From the NCBI GenBank assembly GCA_016783565.1, contig JADHWI010000001.1:1-64000 (forward strand): a DNA stretch of 64,000 nucleotides, given 5' to 3'. Under the pieces are notes generated by a model, which ran no database searches, had not been told where the DNA came from, and worked only from the letters and a program-made list of their open reading frames with translations. Positions 10,809 through 19,012 of the stretch are shown here, piece by piece. This DNA is from Kiritimatiellia bacterium. Lineage in GTDB: Bacteria > Verrucomicrobiota > Kiritimatiellia > UBA8416 > JADHWI01. The position numbers and the translations under genes were made by a program. Numbering within the stretch: position 1 is the first letter of the stretch; each line of letters opens with the position of its first letter.

Positions 10809-11999
10809 TCACTTATCCACGCGAATACGACGGCGAATAAAGGTGGGCACATCAAGGTCTTCACCATTCAGAATGGTGGGTGCCACATCCTTGAATCGGC
10901 CCCGGCCACCCCGATCAAGCGGAAGGCTTGCCTGCTGGCTCTTCTTGCGACCACCGGAAACTGATCGTCCCTGCGGCCGAGCACTTTCCACAGTGCTCTT
11001 TCGTTTTGGCACATTAATCTCTACAGGAGAGTCTTCCACTTGCGGCGCGGTAATGACCGATTTAGTCGCACGCTTCTTCCCCACGACCAAAGATACAGAG
11101 ACACGACCGACCCATGCATCGTCAACCGAGGTACCCACACATACCCGACATTCAGGCTTCACTGCCTTTGAAATCCCGTTGAGCACCTCTCCGACTTCTT
11201 TGAGCGTTACATCCGGCCCCACAACCAGGCTTACTAACACAAGTCTGGCCTGATTTAACTGCTTCCCCCCTTGCAGAGCGGGTCCTTCAAGCAAATCCTT
11301 CAGCACGGCAACAACGCGTTCTTCGCCAGTAGCTTCTGCATAAGCCAGAATACAACTCCCCTCTGTATCGTTACCGATCCGCTTAAGATCAGCAAAATCC
11401 ATGTTGATGCAGCCCGGCCGGGACAGTGTCTGCCACAAGGCGAGCACTGCAGCGGCGAGTTTTTTATTCGCAGCATCGAACAACGCGGGAAGATCATTGG
11501 CATCCACCTCTTCGAACAACGCATCATTGGGCACCGTAATCAGAACATCGCAAACGGCTTCCAGTTCTTCAACGGCACGATTGGCAACCGCCTTACGCGA
11601 TCCCCCTTCGAAAGAAAAAGGCAACGTCGCAAAACAAAGGGTCATAATCCCTGCATCCTGCAATGCTTGCACCGCAGCAACACTTCCCCCGCTTCCAACA
11701 CCTCCACCCAACCCGGTCACAATCAGCACTGCGGCAACATCCTGCGCCGCTTCAAGTAATTCCGTCACGCCAGTATCCATGGCCTGCCGCCCCATGCGGT
11801 CATCACCACCTGCACCAAATCCTTCCGTAAGGGCTTCACCCACCTGAAGACAAATCGGAGCCTTTGATTCAGCAAGCGAACACGTATCGGTATCCACCGC
11901 CAACAACGGCAACTCCTCATCCACAAGTGCCGCCACGGCTCCCATCAATCGTGAACCCGCGCCACCCATTCCCATCACACTGAACCGTTGATCACTCAT
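10809..11999 (-). CDS. ftsZ: Cell-division protein FtsZ, divergent nucleotide-binding loops
   Basis: About 396 residues. FtsZ forms the GTP-dependent division ring. Seen: an N-terminal loop VMGMGGAGSR (usual GGGGGN), LAVDTD, the signature loop TGLGGGVGSGG (usual GGGTGTGA, first Thr replaced by Val), LPFSFEG, ITVPNDAL, and an intact T7 synergy loop INMDFADL. After a basic linker rich in Ser, Arg and Lys, the C-terminal peptide DVPTFIRRR matches the FtsA/ZipA-binding tail. The ATG at 11999 is preferred over the track's TTG at 12008; the SD GGGG is 12 nt upstream. It is last in the HTH-murCB-ddl-ftsQ-ftsA-ftsZ operon. Divergent FtsZ is known in Verrucomicrobia and Lentisphaerae. Confidence 0.93.
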   Translation of the reverse strand: MSDQRFSVMGMGGAGSRLMGAVAALVDEELPLLAVDTDTCSLAESKAPICLQVGEALTEGFGAGGDDRMGRQAMDTGVTELLEAAQDVAAVLIVTGLGGGVGSGGSVAAVQALQDAGIMTLCFATLPFSFEGGSRKAVANRAVEELEAVCDVLITVPNDALFEEVDANDLPALFDAANKKLAAAVLALWQTLSRPGCINMDFADLKRIGNDTEGSCILAYAEATGEERVVAVLKDLLEGPALQGGKQLNQARLVLVSLVVGPDVTLKEVGEVLNGISKAVKPECRVCVGTSVDDAWVGRVSVSLVVGKKRATKSVITAPQVEDSPVEINVPKRKSTVESARPQGRSVSGGRKKSQQASLPLDRGGRGRFKDVAPTILNGEDLDVPTFIRRRIRVDK

Positions 12000-12041
12000 G
12001 ATCCGCAATTACCCCAAATCCATATTGAATAAAAATCAAAT

Positions 12042-13244
12042 CTAACCGCCCACAAGGCTGCTAAGCCATTGTTTGAATAGTGGTTTGCGCCTCTTTTCGC
12101 TGTATACTTTGAATCCGTACTGAACCAACCCACTACAGGTGGCATATTCCGGTCCATCCGTAACCGTGGCCACACCGGTTACACCCCGAGGACGACCGAT
12201 CTCGCAGGGTAATTGAAAAATTTCTTCTGCCAGGCCAAGAACACCCTTGAGATGCGCGCCCCCGCCCGTCAGCACTACCCCGGCCCCGAGATGATGCAAG
12301 GCCTGCTCCTTTACCAACCGATCCCGCACGATGGTCAACAGTTCCTCCATGCGTGCATGAATCACGCTATGCAGTGAACTCAAATTCACCGAACGACCCG
12401 GGAAGCCGACTTCCGGCGCCATGGATACCCGCTGCGATCGATTGACCGTCCCCGTCATCGCACATCCGGACTCTCGCTTAAGCCGTTCCGCCTGGCTCGT
12501 AGAAATATTGAAAGCCATGGCCACATCATTCGTCACATGATCGCCACCGACGCCAACCACACCCGCCGCCGCCGGCACACTCGATGCATAGGCCATATAG
12601 TCCGTAGCTCCACCACCCAGATCGATAACCACAACCCCGCCACGTTTATGCTCGGGTGTCAACACGGACATCCCTGAACAGAGACCGCTGAACACCACAT
12701 CGTCAACACCGACAGAAAGGCTTTGAACCAGACGAATGGAGGTCTCCAACCGATTGCGCACGCAATGCAACACCAGCATATCATGGGAAAGACGGGCACC
12801 CGACATCCCTTCAGGTTTCATCACACGATCCTGATCGTCCAGGGAATAATACTGATCCAGTGAATGCAAAATATCGCGATCCGTGGGGAGATTGACCGCC
12901 TTGGCCACTTCGCGTACCTGCTCCACATCGTCGTCGCCAATGATGCCGTCCTTACTCAAAATGGGAACCGTGCCGCGATTGCTCATGCTGTGGACATGTA
13001 CACCCGAGATCGCCAGAACGACTTCACGAATAGAGACTTTGCCATTCTCTTCAGCCATATCCAATGCCCGTCGCACACAGGCGGATGCATTGTTCATGTC
13101 CACAATCTCGCCCTTACGAATGCCTTTTGAAGGACATTCTCCGGTACCCGTGATCATGATATAGTTGTCTTCACGTGTTTCGCCAACCAGCGCAACAATC
13201 TTCGAAGTACCTATTTCCAAAGCCACTATTGGTGGTGCCGCCAT
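12042..13244 (-). CDS. ftsA: Cell-division protein FtsA
   Basis: An actin-like ATPase that tethers FtsZ to the membrane. From the ATG at 13244 (AGGGAG upstream) it has about 400 residues. IVALEIGTSKIVALVGE is the phosphate-1 loop, the SHS2-like 1C region follows (ISGVHVHSMSNRG), VVVIDLGGGATDYMAY is phosphate-2, and GVVLTGGGAHLKGV is the adenosine motif. The C-terminus (KRRKPLFKQWLSSLVGG) is a basic amphipathic helix typical of the membrane-targeting sequence. The gap to ftsZ is 42 bp. It looks standard compared with the divergent FtsZ. Confidence 0.95.
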   Translation of the reverse strand: MAAPPIVALEIGTSKIVALVGETREDNYIMITGTGECPSKGIRKGEIVDMNNASACVRRALDMAEENGKVSIREVVLAISGVHVHSMSNRGTVPILSKDGIIGDDDVEQVREVAKAVNLPTDRDILHSLDQYYSLDDQDRVMKPEGMSGARLSHDMLVLHCVRNRLETSIRLVQSLSVGVDDVVFSGLCSGMSVLTPEHKRGGVVVIDLGGGATDYMAYASSVPAAAGVVGVGGDHVTNDVAMAFNISTSQAERLKRESGCAMTGTVNRSQRVSMAPEVGFPGRSVNLSSLHSVIHARMEELLTIVRDRLVKEQALHHLGAGVVLTGGGAHLKGVLGLAEEIFQLPCEIGRPRGVTGVATVTDGPEYATCSGLVQYGFKVYSEKRRKPLFKQWLSSLVGG

Positions 13245-13268
13245 CCCACAAAATCTCCCTACCATACG

Positions 13269-14156
13269 CTAGCGCGTATAGATTCTATCATGATACGTTC
13301 CGTCAAAACGGGTCTCATTTGCCCCTTCAGGTTTCTGCATCGCCTGCACCCATCGTCCAAGCTTGCGCAACAACTCCATGCGAGATTCTGGAGTCCTCGC
13401 ACCCATGCCACTCCAGGTTAGATGAATCTGCCGCATCACACCTTCGTAATCGGCTCGCAACACCAGGTGTTCTCGCTTTCCAATATCTACCTCCTTGACA
13501 TCCAGACCAAGTTGCGGATTGCGACACACGTCCACCAACTGAACCGCTGCCACCGACATGCCGCTGATTCGCGATCCCGGCTGCAATGCATCTCCCTTAT
13601 ACCCCACCAATGCCGGAAGGTGTCGCACCGTGCGCGCCGAAGAGAACACCGCACCATCTTTATCCGTGACAAGCGACTGTCGCCACCCGACCACAATGCG
13701 TGCAATCGGCACACGTGGTACGGTTTCCACAATCAACACATCCGGCAAAGACCGTGTAATCTTGATTGCGCGATAGGCGTGTGCACGCGCCAGAAACTTC
13801 CGCTGCAACTCAGCAGGATCAAATGAGAACAGATTGCTGCCTTCCTTGATCCCCTGCTCCCCCCTGATAAAATCATGCGCCGCCGTGCCTTCATCACGAA
13901 TCTGAAGACGCGTGATCGTAAAACGGTCATTCCCCGAAAACAACAGGTAGCCAATGCCCTTAAACCCAAACCAAATGCCCACCACCACCGCTACCACAAG
14001 CAGCGGAACCAGTATCAGCACCGCAATTTGTTTGCCATGACGCGAATCACCACGCTTGGATTTGCGTTGCCGCACGTTCAGCGTCTTTGCATGGCCACGT
14101 CGGCGCTTCACCGTACCCAGCTTCTTTCCCGAAATTATCTCGTCATCAAACCACAT
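13269..14156 (-). CDS. ftsQ: Cell-division protein FtsQ/DivIB
   Basis: 295 residues: a basic cytoplasmic tail (about 40 residues, KRRRGHAKTLNVRQRKSKR), one TM helix (AVLILVPLLVVAVVVGIWFGF), then a POTRA domain (FTITRLQIRDEG...GSNLFSFDPAELQRKF) and the FtsQ beta domain with VIVETVPRVPIARI-type strands. It links cytoplasmic ring proteins to periplasmic septal wall synthesis. The ATG at 14156 is preferred to the TTG at 14165. Stop of ddl to this start is 27 bp, and its stop is 24 bp before ftsA, consistent with one operon. Confidence 0.92.
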   Translation of the reverse strand: MWFDDEIISGKKLGTVKRRRGHAKTLNVRQRKSKRGDSRHGKQIAVLILVPLLVVAVVVGIWFGFKGIGYLLFSGNDRFTITRLQIRDEGTAAHDFIRGEQGIKEGSNLFSFDPAELQRKFLARAHAYRAIKITRSLPDVLIVETVPRVPIARIVVGWRQSLVTDKDGAVFSSARTVRHLPALVGYKGDALQPGSRISGMSVAAVQLVDVCRNPQLGLDVKEVDIGKREHLVLRADYEGVMRQIHLTWSGMGARTPESRMELLRKLGRWVQAMQKPEGANETRFDGTYHDRIYTR

Positions 14157-14183
14157 TGGTCTCAACCTATCACATCGTCCTGA

Positions 14184-15077
14184 TCACCCATCATATGCAG
14201 CCGTCTGCATAATACGATGACACAACTCATGAAACTCTATACCGGCCGCCCCGGCCGCTTTTGGCAATAAACTATTTGGCGTAAATCCCGGAATACTATT
14301 CAACTCCAACACAAACATCCGGCCATCAGGATGCAAACGAAAATCCACACGCCCAAAGCCCCGACAAGCCAAAGCAGCAAACACATCTCTCGCAACCGAT
14401 TGCAACGCAACTACTTGAGGCTCATCCAGAGGTGCAGGCACTAAATACTCGCTGCCTCCCGCATACTTTGCCGAATAGTCATACCACGCATCCGGTGCTC
14501 GAATCTCAACCGGGGGCAACGCTTGCCCATCAACAATACCCACCGTCAATTCACGCCCCTCGATATACTGCTCCACAAGGGCAATCCCACCATATTGCAG
14601 CGTATCAGCCAGACAGTCGTCCCACGCGGCCTCTTCAACCACACGATGAAGGCCAATACTGGATCCCTCTGTCACCGGCTTGAGAACCACAGGCAACGGG
14701 AGCGTTCGAGTATCTCCTGCCCGCAGAATCTCATAAGGTGCGGTCAGGATGCCTGACTGAACAAAGGCTTTCTTGCTGAGCACTTTGTCCATAGACCGAC
14801 AACTGGAATCAGCCCCGGATCCCGTATAAGGAATATGACGTTCATCCAGAATCGCCTGAACGCCCCCATCTTCACCAAATGCACCATGCAACGCAATAAA
14901 TACCGCCTCAGCACCGTCCAACGTGGGGACGGTCCTCTCATCCAGCACCACCGGTAACACCTCATAGCCGGCTTGTTCCAGCCCCTGCGAAACAGCCCGA
15001 CCAGACTGGAGAGAAATCTCGCGCTCCGAAGATGGCCCTCCCATCAATACCGCAACTTTCTCAAACCGCTTCACCAT
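14184..15077 (-). CDS. ddl: D-alanine--D-alanine ligase
   Basis: An ATP-grasp enzyme of about 297 residues joining two D-Ala for the peptidoglycan stem peptide. VAVLMGGPSSEREISLQSGRAV is the N-terminal signature. FIALHGAFGEDGGVQAILD carries the HGxxGEDG motif, and YTGSGADSSCRSMDKVLSKKAF and GFGRVDFRLHPDGRMFVLELNSIPGFT give the late ATP/Mg site. The start overlaps the murCB stop (TGATG), implying coupled translation; a GTG one codon earlier is possible. Position 3 in the wall/division operon. Confidence 0.96.
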   Translation of the reverse strand: MVKRFEKVAVLMGGPSSEREISLQSGRAVSQGLEQAGYEVLPVVLDERTVPTLDGAEAVFIALHGAFGEDGGVQAILDERHIPYTGSGADSSCRSMDKVLSKKAFVQSGILTAPYEILRAGDTRTLPLPVVLKPVTEGSSIGLHRVVEEAAWDDCLADTLQYGGIALVEQYIEGRELTVGIVDGQALPPVEIRAPDAWYDYSAKYAGGSEYLVPAPLDEPQVVALQSVARDVFAALACRGFGRVDFRLHPDGRMFVLELNSIPGFTPNSLLPKAAGAAGIEFHELCHRIMQTAAYDG

Positions 15078-17437
15078 CACCTCATCAAACCAAAAAATCG
15101 TATCTCAGTCTCCAGCTCCACCCCATACCGCATGGCCACAGCCATCTGCATCTGCTGCATCAGGGCCAACACATCCGACGCGCAAGCACTCTTATCAACG
15201 CTCAGAAAGTTCGCTTGGGAAGGCGCTGTCCCAGCCCCTCCCAATTGCACACCTTTATACCCGGCACCCTCCAGAAGCCGACCTGCAAAATCCCCCGGGG
15301 GATTCTTGAAAACAGAACCTGCCGATCGCTGCGATGCCATCCATACACGACGTTCAGACACCTCCTTGCGCCGCGCTTGAATCACCTTCCGGTCACCCGC
15401 CGGAAGCTGTAAAGCGACTTCAACACACAGCGCATCCCGCAACGCGTCGCACGTTCTGTATGCGAGTCCCATCCGCTCTCGAGAGACTATATGCTCACGA
15501 CCGTCACTTTTCAAACAACGAATCCATAAAAGGTGATCTCCAATCTCCGAACCGTGTGCACCGGCGTTCATACGACAGGCCCCACCTACGGTGCCCGGAA
15601 TCCCCTCCAGATTCTCCAAGCCTGCCAACCCGTTCTCCTCGGCCCAGTCCAGCAGACGCGACAGAGACACCCCCGCTCCAATACGTATCACCTCTCCATC
15701 TTGCACAATATGGCGAAACGCCTCACCCCGCAACCGAACAACCACCCCCGATACCCCAAGATCACTGGCCAACACATTGAATCCGCCACCCAGCAGTCTC
15801 AACGGCAAACCGTTCTCTTCTGTCCAGCGCAACAAAACGGCCAGATCATAAATGCTTCCCACGTCCACAAGGCAATCTGCCTCGCCCCCCACACCAAAAC
15901 TGGTGATACGGCGCATCGGAAAACCCTGACGCACCTCAGAGTCCCTCAATGCCTCAATCGGCAAAGCCACAACGGTCTCACCATGCCCTTCACGTTGAAA
16001 TCCAACCTGCTCCGCTTCCAGGGCTTGCTGCATATCAAACGCCAACCGTTCCACATCCCCAGCTCCCGTCACCAGCAACATATCGCCCGGCTGCAGCGTC
16101 CGACGGTAATACTCTCCGGCCTCCTCCACAGAATCGGCCAGCATCAGGCGTTTCGGGCCGTGCTGCGGCGCCCCGTAAAAACGGGCATAAAGATCCGCCG
16201 TCGTCCCGCCCGGCAACGGCGATTCAGAGGCTGCATACACAGGCACCAGAATAACTTCATCCACACCATCAAAAGCAGAAGGGAAATCCGCCCCCAAGGC
16301 TCGCGTACGGGTGTAGCGGTGCGGCTGATAAACCATGCGTAAACGCTGCGACTTTTGCAAACCAGCCATCTTCACCAGTGCGACAATCTCAGAGGGATGA
16401 TGCGCATAGTCGGACACCACGGTCACACCGTCTCGACACGCCACCCTTTCGAAACGACGGCGAGGCAAACTTAATGCATTCAACCCTTCGCGAATATGCT
16501 CCGGACTCACTCCCAATTCCAGAGCCACGCCTATTGCCGCAACCGCGTTCATCACATTGTGAACACCCGCAACCGGAATCGCAAAAACACCCAGATCACG
16601 CCCCTCACATAACAGCGTAAAGGTCGACACACGGGTCTCGCAGTTTATACCACTCACCCGCAGGCTGACCCCCTCTGATTCACCGTAAGAACGCGCACCC
16701 GGCACCGAGGCGCACAAAGCAGCGGCACGCGGATCATCCCCCCCGTATATCACTCGCCTTTGCGACTGAGAAATGAATCCAGAGAAACAGGACTCGAAAT
16801 CTGCCACGTTTTCGAAATGCTCCATGTGATCAAATTCGATATTGGTCACAATGGCAATATCCGGCGAATACAGCGCGACCGTTCCGTCGCTTTCGTCGGC
16901 TTCCACCACAAGCACCTCTGCTGCGTCCGAGCCCGCCACGCCACCCAGCGACTCAATCTCACCACCAATACACCAGGCCGTTTTCACATCGCAGGCATTC
17001 AGGAGCTGTGCCACGAACGTACTCGTAGTCGTCTTACCATGTGTGCCGCTGACCGCCACAGACGTGACACCCTCCAGCAAACGCGGTAGCACTTCGCCGC
17101 GCCGAAAAACCGGCAATGCACATTGACGAGCAGCACAAATCTCATCGTGTTGTTCATTGACCGCTGCGGTTCGAACCACCCAATCCACGTCCTGCGTGAC
17201 ATGACTTGCATCATGCCCCTCAATCACCTCTATCCCGCGACTGGACAACCAGCGTCCGATTCGCGTTTCCGCAGTGTGATCACATCCGCTGACACGGCAA
17301 CCACGCTGTTTAAGCAGAACAGCCAGACCAGCCATCCCAATACCACAGATCCCTACCAGGTGCACATGCCCCCCGGTAACCAGGCAGCTTTGGAGCTCAT
17401 CATCAACTGTCTTCATCATTGCATCGCGTTTAAGCAT
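15077..17437 (-). CDS. murC/murB: MurC-MurB fusion (UDP-MurNAc--Ala ligase / UDP-GlcNAc-enolpyruvate reductase)
   Basis: About 786 residues carrying two consecutive peptidoglycan enzymes. The N-terminal MurC half has HLVGICGIGMAGLA, the ATP loop VAVSGTHGKTTTST, EADESDGT, FDHMEHF and SDYAHHPSEI. The C-terminal MurB half has the FAD motif LGGGFNVLASD, GIPGTVGGACRMNAGAHG, the proton-donor serine in SVFKNPPG and a late Glu in LETEIRFFG. MurB makes UDP-MurNAc and MurC adds L-Ala, so the fusion joins successive steps. The start at ATG 17437 has GGAAGG 5 nt upstream; the track's start at 17527 would overlap the HTH gene. Murein gene fusions are known in PVC bacteria. Confidence 0.95.
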   Translation of the reverse strand: MLKRDAMMKTVDDELQSCLVTGGHVHLVGICGIGMAGLAVLLKQRGCRVSGCDHTAETRIGRWLSSRGIEVIEGHDASHVTQDVDWVVRTAAVNEQHDEICAARQCALPVFRRGEVLPRLLEGVTSVAVSGTHGKTTTSTFVAQLLNACDVKTAWCIGGEIESLGGVAGSDAAEVLVVEADESDGTVALYSPDIAIVTNIEFDHMEHFENVADFESCFSGFISQSQRRVIYGGDDPRAAALCASVPGARSYGESEGVSLRVSGINCETRVSTFTLLCEGRDLGVFAIPVAGVHNVMNAVAAIGVALELGVSPEHIREGLNALSLPRRRFERVACRDGVTVVSDYAHHPSEIVALVKMAGLQKSQRLRMVYQPHRYTRTRALGADFPSAFDGVDEVILVPVYAASESPLPGGTTADLYARFYGAPQHGPKRLMLADSVEEAGEYYRRTLQPGDMLLVTGAGDVERLAFDMQQALEAEQVGFQREGHGETVVALPIEALRDSEVRQGFPMRRITSFGVGGEADCLVDVGSIYDLAVLLRWTEENGLPLRLLGGGFNVLASDLGVSGVVVRLRGEAFRHIVQDGEVIRIGAGVSLSRLLDWAEENGLAGLENLEGIPGTVGGACRMNAGAHGSEIGDHLLWIRCLKSDGREHIVSRERMGLAYRTCDALRDALCVEVALQLPAGDRKVIQARRKEVSERRVWMASQRSAGSVFKNPPGDFAGRLLEGAGYKGVQLGGAGTAPSQANFLSVDKSACASDVLALMQQMQMAVAMRYGVELETEIRFFGLMR

Positions 17438-17481
17438 TTTGCCTTCCGGGTATTCGGGGTGCCACACAGTCCACTCCCATT

Positions 17482-17676
17482 TCAGGATCGCCGTGCACGA
17501 AGCGCCTGCGCATGACGATCCGGGCAATACCCCAGTTCATCCATGACAGCCTCGATCTTCCGGCGCAACTCAGGGCTTACATAGCCACGTTCCGTCACGA
17601 CCCGCGATACTGTGTTCTGCCCCACCCCAGCGCGTTCTGCAATGTCTTTCTGCGTTATATTCTTTTTCTTCATCAT
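17482..17676 (-). CDS. Stand-alone LacI-type DNA-binding domain
   Basis: A 64-residue protein (63 from the second ATG). ITQKDIAERAGVGQNTVSRV is a LacI helix-turn-helix, then GYVSPELRRKIEAVMDELGY and the hinge helix AQALRARRS, where it stops. The sugar-binding/dimerisation domain (about 270 residues) is absent, and no continuation exists in other frames. The stop lies 44 nt before the murC-murB start, so it heads the wall/division operon. A perfect palindrome sits at its start. It may be a functional mini-regulator of the operon or a recent truncation; intact reading frame and placement favour function. Confidence 0.85.
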   Translation of the reverse strand: MMKKKNITQKDIAERAGVGQNTVSRVVTERGYVSPELRRKIEAVMDELGYCPDRHAQALRARRS

Positions 17677-17678
17677 TC

Positions 17679-17692
17679 TGGTTACGTAACCA
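17679..17692 (-). promoter_or_regulatory. LacI-type operator palindrome
   Basis: TGGTTACGTAACCA, a perfect 14-bp palindrome with the central CG step typical of LacI-family operators, ending 3 bp before the first ATG of the HTH gene. Binding there would block initiation of the HTH-murCB-ddl-ftsQAZ transcript. The palindrome is seen; the regulator match is inferred. Confidence 0.6.
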
Positions 17693-17851
17693 TTTATATG
17701 AATCCCACTCCGTTAAAGGAATGGGATTAGTGGAATGGACGGTCTCCATAAAAAATTGGAGGCTTGACGTAACGATATGAAACGAAGCATTGAGCTGTCT
17801 ATAGGACTATGACCTAAATTGCGCAAAAAGTTTTCAGCCATTTCAAGGGCG

Positions 17852-18154
17852 TCAATGCCGTTTCTTCCGATCGCTGGACACGTGATGCGAAAACTGCATC
17901 ACCGAGAACCAGACCAGCACCAACCCCACCGGAAACAAGGAAAAACCGACAATCACGGGCAAGAGCGGGAAAGGCACAACCCCGTCCGACACGCCCTGCA
18001 CCACCATTTCACGAACTGCTGCCGTTCGATACATCATCACAAAAACAGAAACAATCGCGCCAAACAGCGGGCCCATAGCCAGCATAATCCCAACAATAAG
18101 GCTTGTGGTCAGCCCCTTGTGAGGACGGTCTTCAACTTTCTGTATCTCCAGCAT
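17852..18154 (-). CDS. Small hypothetical membrane protein, two TM segments
   Basis: About 100 residues: a short polar N-terminus (MLEIQKVEDRPHKGLTT), TM1 SLIVGIMLAMGPLFGAIVSVFVMMY, a loop with RTAAVREMVVQGVSDG, TM2 LPVIVGFSLFPVGLVLVWFSVM, and a basic tail HHVSSDRKKRH. The spacing of two helices around a loop with small residues recalls MotA/TolQ/ExbB fragments, but similarity is not enough to name it. It is isolated between the HTH gene and yceH, on the minus strand. The intervening 17693-17851 contains no recognised feature. Confidence 0.55.
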   Translation of the reverse strand: MLEIQKVEDRPHKGLTTSLIVGIMLAMGPLFGAIVSVFVMMYRTAAVREMVVQGVSDGVVPFPLLPVIVGFSLFPVGLVLVWFSVMQFSHHVSSDRKKRH

Positions 18155-18343
18155 TCCCAATCCACTCCACGTTTTTCGTATTAATATTTAAATATACCGC
18201 ACCTCCCCCACCCGCACAAGCCCAGCGATTCCCCATTGCTATCACAGCCGCCGTGTGCTTGACTTCCTCAATAATTTGTCACGCAGGTACCGGAACTGCA
18301 TAGACTCCATTTACACTCAGCATGAAGAAAGGACGATTACGTG

Positions 18344-19012
18344 ATGGCGCTCATACTTTCCCCTATAGAAGCTCGCGTACTGGGCTGCCTGATAGAAAAA
18401 GAAATTGCCACGCCGGATTATTATCCATTGACTCTGAATGCACTCGTCGCGGCATGCAACCAGAAATCCAATCGCGCTCCGACCATGGCGCTTACCGACA
18501 AGGATGTCGTATCGGCGCTGGATGCAATGCGTTATGATCATAAATTGGCCATGCAGGTCACATCCACCGCAAGCCGAGTACCAAAGTATCGCCACAACCT
18601 GCAGTCGCACTGGGATTTTTCAATACAGGAACGCGCGATACTGTGCGAACTGCTGCTGCGAGGGCCCCAAACCGTAGGCGAACTCCGCACACACACCTCT
18701 CGGCTCCACGCATTCGTAGACACCACGGCCGTGGACGAGACCCTGACCAGCCTGACCGAATGGGGCGAAGGCCCGCTTACCGTCAAACTACCTCGGGAGC
18801 CGGGACGCAGGGAATCCCGCTGGGCACACCTCCTCTGTGGTGATATCGAAATCGACCCCCAGCCATCAGCCTCGCCACCGGAAGCGGCACGAGTTGCGCT
18901 ACAGGCCGAAAACGACAGAATTTCATCCCTGGAAGCCGAAGTCGCAACCTTACGAGAGACACTTGATAACATTGCCAGAGAATTCTCTACATTCAAAAAA
19001 CAGTTCGACTAA
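18344..19012 (+). CDS. yceH: YceH/DUF480 family protein
   Basis: 222 residues with the characteristic opening LSPIEARVLGCLIEKEIATPDYYPLTLNALVAACNQKSNR, two winged-helix domains (second about ERAILCELLLRGPQTVGELRTH), and a C-terminal coiled coil (RISSLEAEVATLRETLDNI). The family is widespread and conserved, with no established biochemical role; the tandem winged helices suggest DNA or RNA binding. GTG at 18341 and ATG at 18344 are adjacent; AAGGA upstream serves either. It is monocistronic, with a strong promoter for rplM starting 79 bp after it. Confidence 0.9.
   Translation: MALILSPIEARVLGCLIEKEIATPDYYPLTLNALVAACNQKSNRAPTMALTDKDVVSALDAMRYDHKLAMQVTSTASRVPKYRHNLQSHWDFSIQERAILCELLLRGPQTVGELRTHTSRLHAFVDTTAVDETLTSLTEWGEGPLTVKLPREPGRRESRWAHLLCGDIEIDPQPSASPPEAARVALQAENDRISSLEAEVATLRETLDNIAREFSTFKKQFD

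Follow-up and report, generated by a model that had tools for sequence, protein, structure and literature searches.

The window analysed here comprises the first 64,000 nucleotides of contig JADHWI010000001.1 of a Kiritimatiellia bacterium (GCA_016783565.1), a draft assembly of 2.42 Mb in 77 contigs that is ~85% complete. On the minus strand of the window, a gene for a 64-residue LacI-type protein stands upstream of cell-wall and division genes (Table 1). The gene begins with ATG, ends with TGA and encodes the sequence MMKKKNITQKDIAERAGVGQNTVSRVVTERGYVSPELRRKIEAVMDELGYCPDRHAQALRARRS. Its stop is separated by 44 bp from the start of the following gene (17437) on the same strand, and this interval contains a Shine-Dalgarno-like GGAAGG. 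The preliminary description of an operon-like run of murCB, ddl and ftsQAZ on one strand held for the gene order, with the correction that murC and murB are a single fused gene. The LacI-type gene is preceded by a leader, directly upstream of which lies gene X (17852-18160 of the window, same strand), encoding a ~100-aa orphan with apparent membrane segments that gave no match in Pfam, NCBIfam or PHROG. A search of the interval between gene X and the murC-murB fusion gave no convincing sigma-70 promoter, and no terminator-like sites were found in 17300-18400.

Table 1. Positions of genes and leader features at the LacI-type locus, numbered from the first nucleotide of the window.
Feature	Position	Strand	Basis or remarks
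ftsZ	10809..12008	-	Pfam
ftsA	12042..13265	-	Pfam
ftsQ-like	13269..14165	-	Position; no Pfam match
ddl (D-Ala-D-Ala ligase)	14184..15080	-	Position and sequence
murC-murB fusion, 786 aa	15077..17437	-	ORF list, Pfam
LacI-type DNA-binding domain, HTH and hinge helix, 64 aa	17482..17676	-	ORF, Pfam, HP62 alignment
Palindrome TGGTTACGTAACCA	17679..17692	none	Perfect 14-mer with CG centre, candidate operator, 2 bp upstream of ATG
Leader cassette	17679..17834	-	~156 bp; copy 2 at G000:C42:180-329, 75% identical, then repeat-element insertion
Hairpin P2	17701..17728	-	Stem of 11 bp and loop of 6 nt, within the presumed leader
Invariant CGTCCATTCCACT	17729..17741	-	Identical in both copies; 5' part paired with the palindrome by RNAalifold
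Hairpin P1	17743..17762	-	Short inverted repeat CCTCC ... GGAG in the leader
38-bp block AAAACTTTTTKCGCAATTTAGGTCATAGTCCTATAGAC	17797..17834	-	One base differs between the copies

The domain content of the short protein was defined by Pfam and by alignment to proteins of known structure. The LacI family (PF00356) matched residues 10-53 with E = 2e-17 and 63 bits (cut-off, 27 bits), and the Pfam scan gave no match to the MraZ domain (PF02381). The strongest PDB matches were isolated Lac headpieces, and residues 5-63 aligned without gaps to residues 2-60 of LacI in the Lac repressor headpiece HP62 (E = 2.5e-12). Since this ungapped match to the 62-residue headpiece runs from end to end, the protein stops directly after the hinge helix, and the earlier claim of a LacI head without a sensor that ends at this helix was borne out. 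Hinge residues A53, Q54 and L56 of LacI correspond to A56, Q57 and L59, with N50 replaced by D and V52 by H (H55); in the recognition helix, Y17-Q18 is replaced by Q-N and the TVSR motif is retained. The effector and dimerisation core is absent from the 64-mer, and no relic of it was found between the TGA and murC. Judged from these alignments, the protein is by architecture a LacI-family variant in which the DNA-reading parts are intact and the core domain is missing.

The perfect 14-bp, CG-centred palindrome that the preliminary description had placed at the gene's own start was found there, 2 bp from the ATG. A perfect 14-bp palindrome is by itself nothing unusual: the 64-kb window has five (3.5 expected from shuffles), of which two are centred on CG (0.7 expected). 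The weight of the observation therefore rests on position and recurrence. The exact TGGTTACGTAACCA recurs once elsewhere in the genome, at G000:C42:180-193; the chance expectation for any given 14-mer in 2.42 Mb is ~0.01 by simple arithmetic and, from their sequence, the two sites are of common origin. A regulon built from near-matches was rejected, as sites with up to two mismatches were fewer than those found with a reversed control pattern, so that only the two exact sites count. In the dominant subgroup of LacI proteins, which carries TVSR, the Arg is associated with a G in the sixth position of the half-site, and a hinge Leu goes together with a CG centre (Camas et al., PMC2978694). A sequence test of TGGTTACGTAACCA against these two rules found G at position 6 of the half-site and CG at the centre. 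Position 3 of the half-site is T, where A is usual in LacI-family sites.

Both exact palindromes belong to copies of the leader cassette. Conservation between the two copies is patchy, the 14-mer, CGTCCATTCCACT and the 38-bp block being kept and the stretch between them being poorly alike. The source genome has no third copy, and none of the 345 other class genomes yielded the cassette, whether searched with BLAST, with a covariance model or by pattern. The 38-bp block may be a promoter of the leader or a site for a regulator. As a wider motif the block was rejected, because a search tolerating two mismatches found it in none of the 345 other class genomes. It was also rejected as coding sequence: one frame is open in both copies, but the alignment has gaps of 1, 2 and 6 bases and the residues further downstream are unrelated. 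One exact 18-mer of the block occurs in viral contigs, with flanks that show no similarity.

A phosphoribosyltransferase gene (pyrE-like) lies divergent to copy 2 of the leader, which points away from it. Copy 2 is broken by an insertion belonging to a repeat family, and what it originally preceded has been lost at the contig end. The family measures ~195 bp, has inverted ends of the CACTGGCATCCCAT type and at least 10 matches (G000:C42:1-139 in L147; C11, C26, C51, C53, C56:94145 and 108034, C67, C68 and C72), and looks like a REPIN or MITE. Because the stretch common to C11 and C42 is this repeat, present at 10 or more places, a join between these contigs is undecidable. The contig that contains L147 also carries a Y1_Tnp-like ORF (IS200-like, below the cut-off; L147:3012-3704).

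It could be that the 156-bp segment is itself a low-copy repeat or the end of a mobile element, with the palindrome and the second copy being parts of it that are unrelated to the HTH gene. One edge of the two-copy repeat coincides exactly with the palindrome, and in the assembled contig C42 copy 2 has no HTH gene beside it; both observations would be consistent with such an origin. However, the 2.42-Mb assembly contains the segment just twice, searches of the 345 other class genomes found it in none, and the repeat with at least 10 matches itself interrupts copy 2, 40 bp past the palindrome. An element end is regarded as quite improbable.

The leader may instead act as RNA. Under this explanation a structured 5' UTR, consisting of the two hairpins and a stem formed in part by one half of the palindrome, would control the operon; the palindrome would be mainly an RNA element and the HTH protein secondary. 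Copy 1 folds far better than its shuffles (z = -4.3 on the minus strand and -4.8 on the plus strand), and P2 persists in copy 2, where one pair has changed on both sides and two G-U-compatible substitutions preserve pairing only on the minus strand, which is the operon strand. Taken from the alignment, the retention of P2 is suggestive of RNA structure. However, note that only two sequences are compared and that the pair counts have no significance, shuffles matching them in 238 of 500 cases, and that P1 and the overall folding energy of copy 1 favour the plus strand. In addition, a search of 17400-18400 against Rfam 15 gave nothing above the gathering score, the single match being at chance level (E = 0.64), and a DNA-binding dimer needs a perfect inverted repeat too. 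On balance, control by an RNA leader seems rather unlikely.

The occurrence of LacI-type domains was determined in the source genome and in its relatives. In its own assembly the 64-mer is the sole LacI-type domain; a second, weak match was to a short HTH protein of a different type. Matches were obtained in 23 of 57 genomes, the source genome counted, with frames of at least 300 residues in nearly every case, and two shorter frames among the relatives adjoin contig ends. Among the listed best PF00356 matches from 346 genomes of the class, the 64-mer has the shortest frame (76 codons from stop to stop), followed by frames of 101, 141 and 211 aa. The 101-aa frame (G307) was rejected as a second short LacI protein, as it looks like a frame-broken full-length gene. 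The best 80 protein matches from 85,462 species were all of the full-length LacI type and continued for at least 229 residues, two of them being cut by a contig end, and the highest identity of the 64-mer to any full-length protein was ~50%. An origin from a phage or plasmid was rejected, the matches being ordinary lacI/treR-like genes at less than 60% identity.

The neighbourhood of murC was also compared. A LacI-type HTH was found at 0 of 29 relative loci, with flanks of up to ~1.5 kb and several loci cut by contig ends, and the sole genome of the same family is likewise without one. Full-length LacI homologues at the same place, which the preliminary description took as the sign of a simple truncation, therefore did not occur at these loci. 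In the same-family genome, a Phd/YefM-VapC-like toxin-antitoxin pair, recognised by sequence inspection only, lies divergently upstream of murCB (L062 3077-3711). Conservation of the 64-residue length and of the palindrome in relatives had also been put forward as a check, and neither was found. The searched genomes include no second member of the source genus and, as far as their sequences go, the arrangement is unique to the source genome among them; it is without comparative support, and its weight is limited to that of a single draft genome. Literature searches brought up no description of a LacI gene reduced to its headpiece and none of a dcw operon under a LacI-type regulator, a negative result that counts only weakly as evidence that neither exists.

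One interpretation of these data is that a deletion removed the effector domain from a LacI gene, which persists before murCB as a passenger with little or no function. The 64-aa form is kept in no relative searched, the close protein matches are all of the full-length type, and a lone Lac head is a weak dimer (PMC9743208). However, the residues of both HTH and hinge are intact, the frame ends cleanly without a trace of the core, and the 14-bp palindrome is exact in both leader copies. Moreover, a best full-length identity of ~50% argues that any truncation was not recent; a recent truncation in situ was rejected on this ground and for want of a LacI gene near murC in relatives. A remnant is considered unlikely.

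The preliminary description had also set the locus apart from MraZ-controlled dcw clusters, which was not supported. MraZ is present on another contig (C41), where its gene heads the other half of a split dcw cluster and is followed by ftsI, two Mur ligase genes, mraY, murD and ftsW (L212:6919-18401). A murG gene was not seen in this half. Because the MraZ of the genome heads the other dcw half, the LacI head would add to MraZ and not replace it, and it would govern the second dcw half only, if anything.

The reading preferred here is that of an autorepressor. Two 64-aa heads would meet cooperatively on TGGTTACGTAACCA beside their own start codon, with one recognition helix per half-site; the paired hinge helices would fold at the central CG, and the L59 leucines would wedge into the minor groove. 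The bound heads would block transcription of HTH-murCB-ddl-ftsQ-ftsA-ftsZ, presumed to be a single transcript. Lacking both an effector pocket and a core dimer, the protein would bind according mainly to its own concentration. The expression level of the division and late-wall operon would thereby be under homeostatic negative feedback, with no response to sugars or nucleotides. In favour of autorepression are the complete HTH and hinge, the agreement of TGGTTACGTAACCA with the two LacI-family site rules, its place beside the start codon with murCB shortly downstream and no terminator-like site found, the lack of a core relic before murC, the retention of the exact 14-mer in a leader copy otherwise just 75% identical, and an assembly with no other LacI-type protein as a possible reader of the palindrome. 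Against it, V52 of LacI corresponds to H55, leaving no Cys for a disulfide, and a same-length homologue is absent among the searched genomes, hence there is no sign of selection on the short form. The T at half-site position 3 and the failure to find a convincing sigma-70 promoter also count against it. In NMR work on the truncated Lac DNA-binding domain, a V52C disulfide link was used to ensure dimerisation (PMC9743208). The use of such a link for the truncated Lac head in structural work is the main weakness of the autorepressor reading.

Weighing these points, and from sequence analysis, we give about an even chance to a genuine lineage-specific, sensor-less LacI-type repressor that exerts concentration-driven autorepression on the murCB-ftsZ operon. 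The fuller proposal, in which the headpiece-only repressor and the duplicated structured leader together set murCB-ftsZ expression by concentration feedback beside MraZ, is more tentative. The 64-mer is directly testable in vitro, because it has only 64 residues and a defined 14-mer candidate site.

Parts of this arrangement have counterparts in known systems. In Verrucomicrobium spinosum murC and murB are fused and the dcw genes are dispersed (PMC12283558), which resembles the murCB fusion and split dcw genes of the source genome; unlike here, no LacI-type HTH is reported in the available part of that study. The closest structural counterpart is the Lac headpiece HP62 (PDB 1l1m, 1osl, 2kei and others), with near-identical limits and an ungapped alignment, but HP62 is a laboratory fragment, several of its structures being of the V52C covalent dimer, whereas the 64-mer is a natural gene product without that Cys. 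With MraZ it shares the character of a small DNA-binding protein encoded by the first gene of a wall and division operon; however, the two families are unrelated, and the source genome has both.

LacI-family proteins are the textbook case of ligand-switched repression, and their core is thought to be necessary for dimerisation. The LacI/GalR repressors (PF00356 plus a periplasmic-binding-like core) resemble the present system in the HTH, the TVSR helix, the A/Q/L hinge and a CG-centred palindrome at the own start. In contrast to them, the 64-mer has no effector and dimerisation core and stands before murCB-ftsZ and not before a sugar or nucleotide operon. If the autorepressor reading is true, specific operator binding would be sustainable without the LacI core, and the division genes, including ftsZ, would be headed by a rare dedicated regulator other than MraZ.
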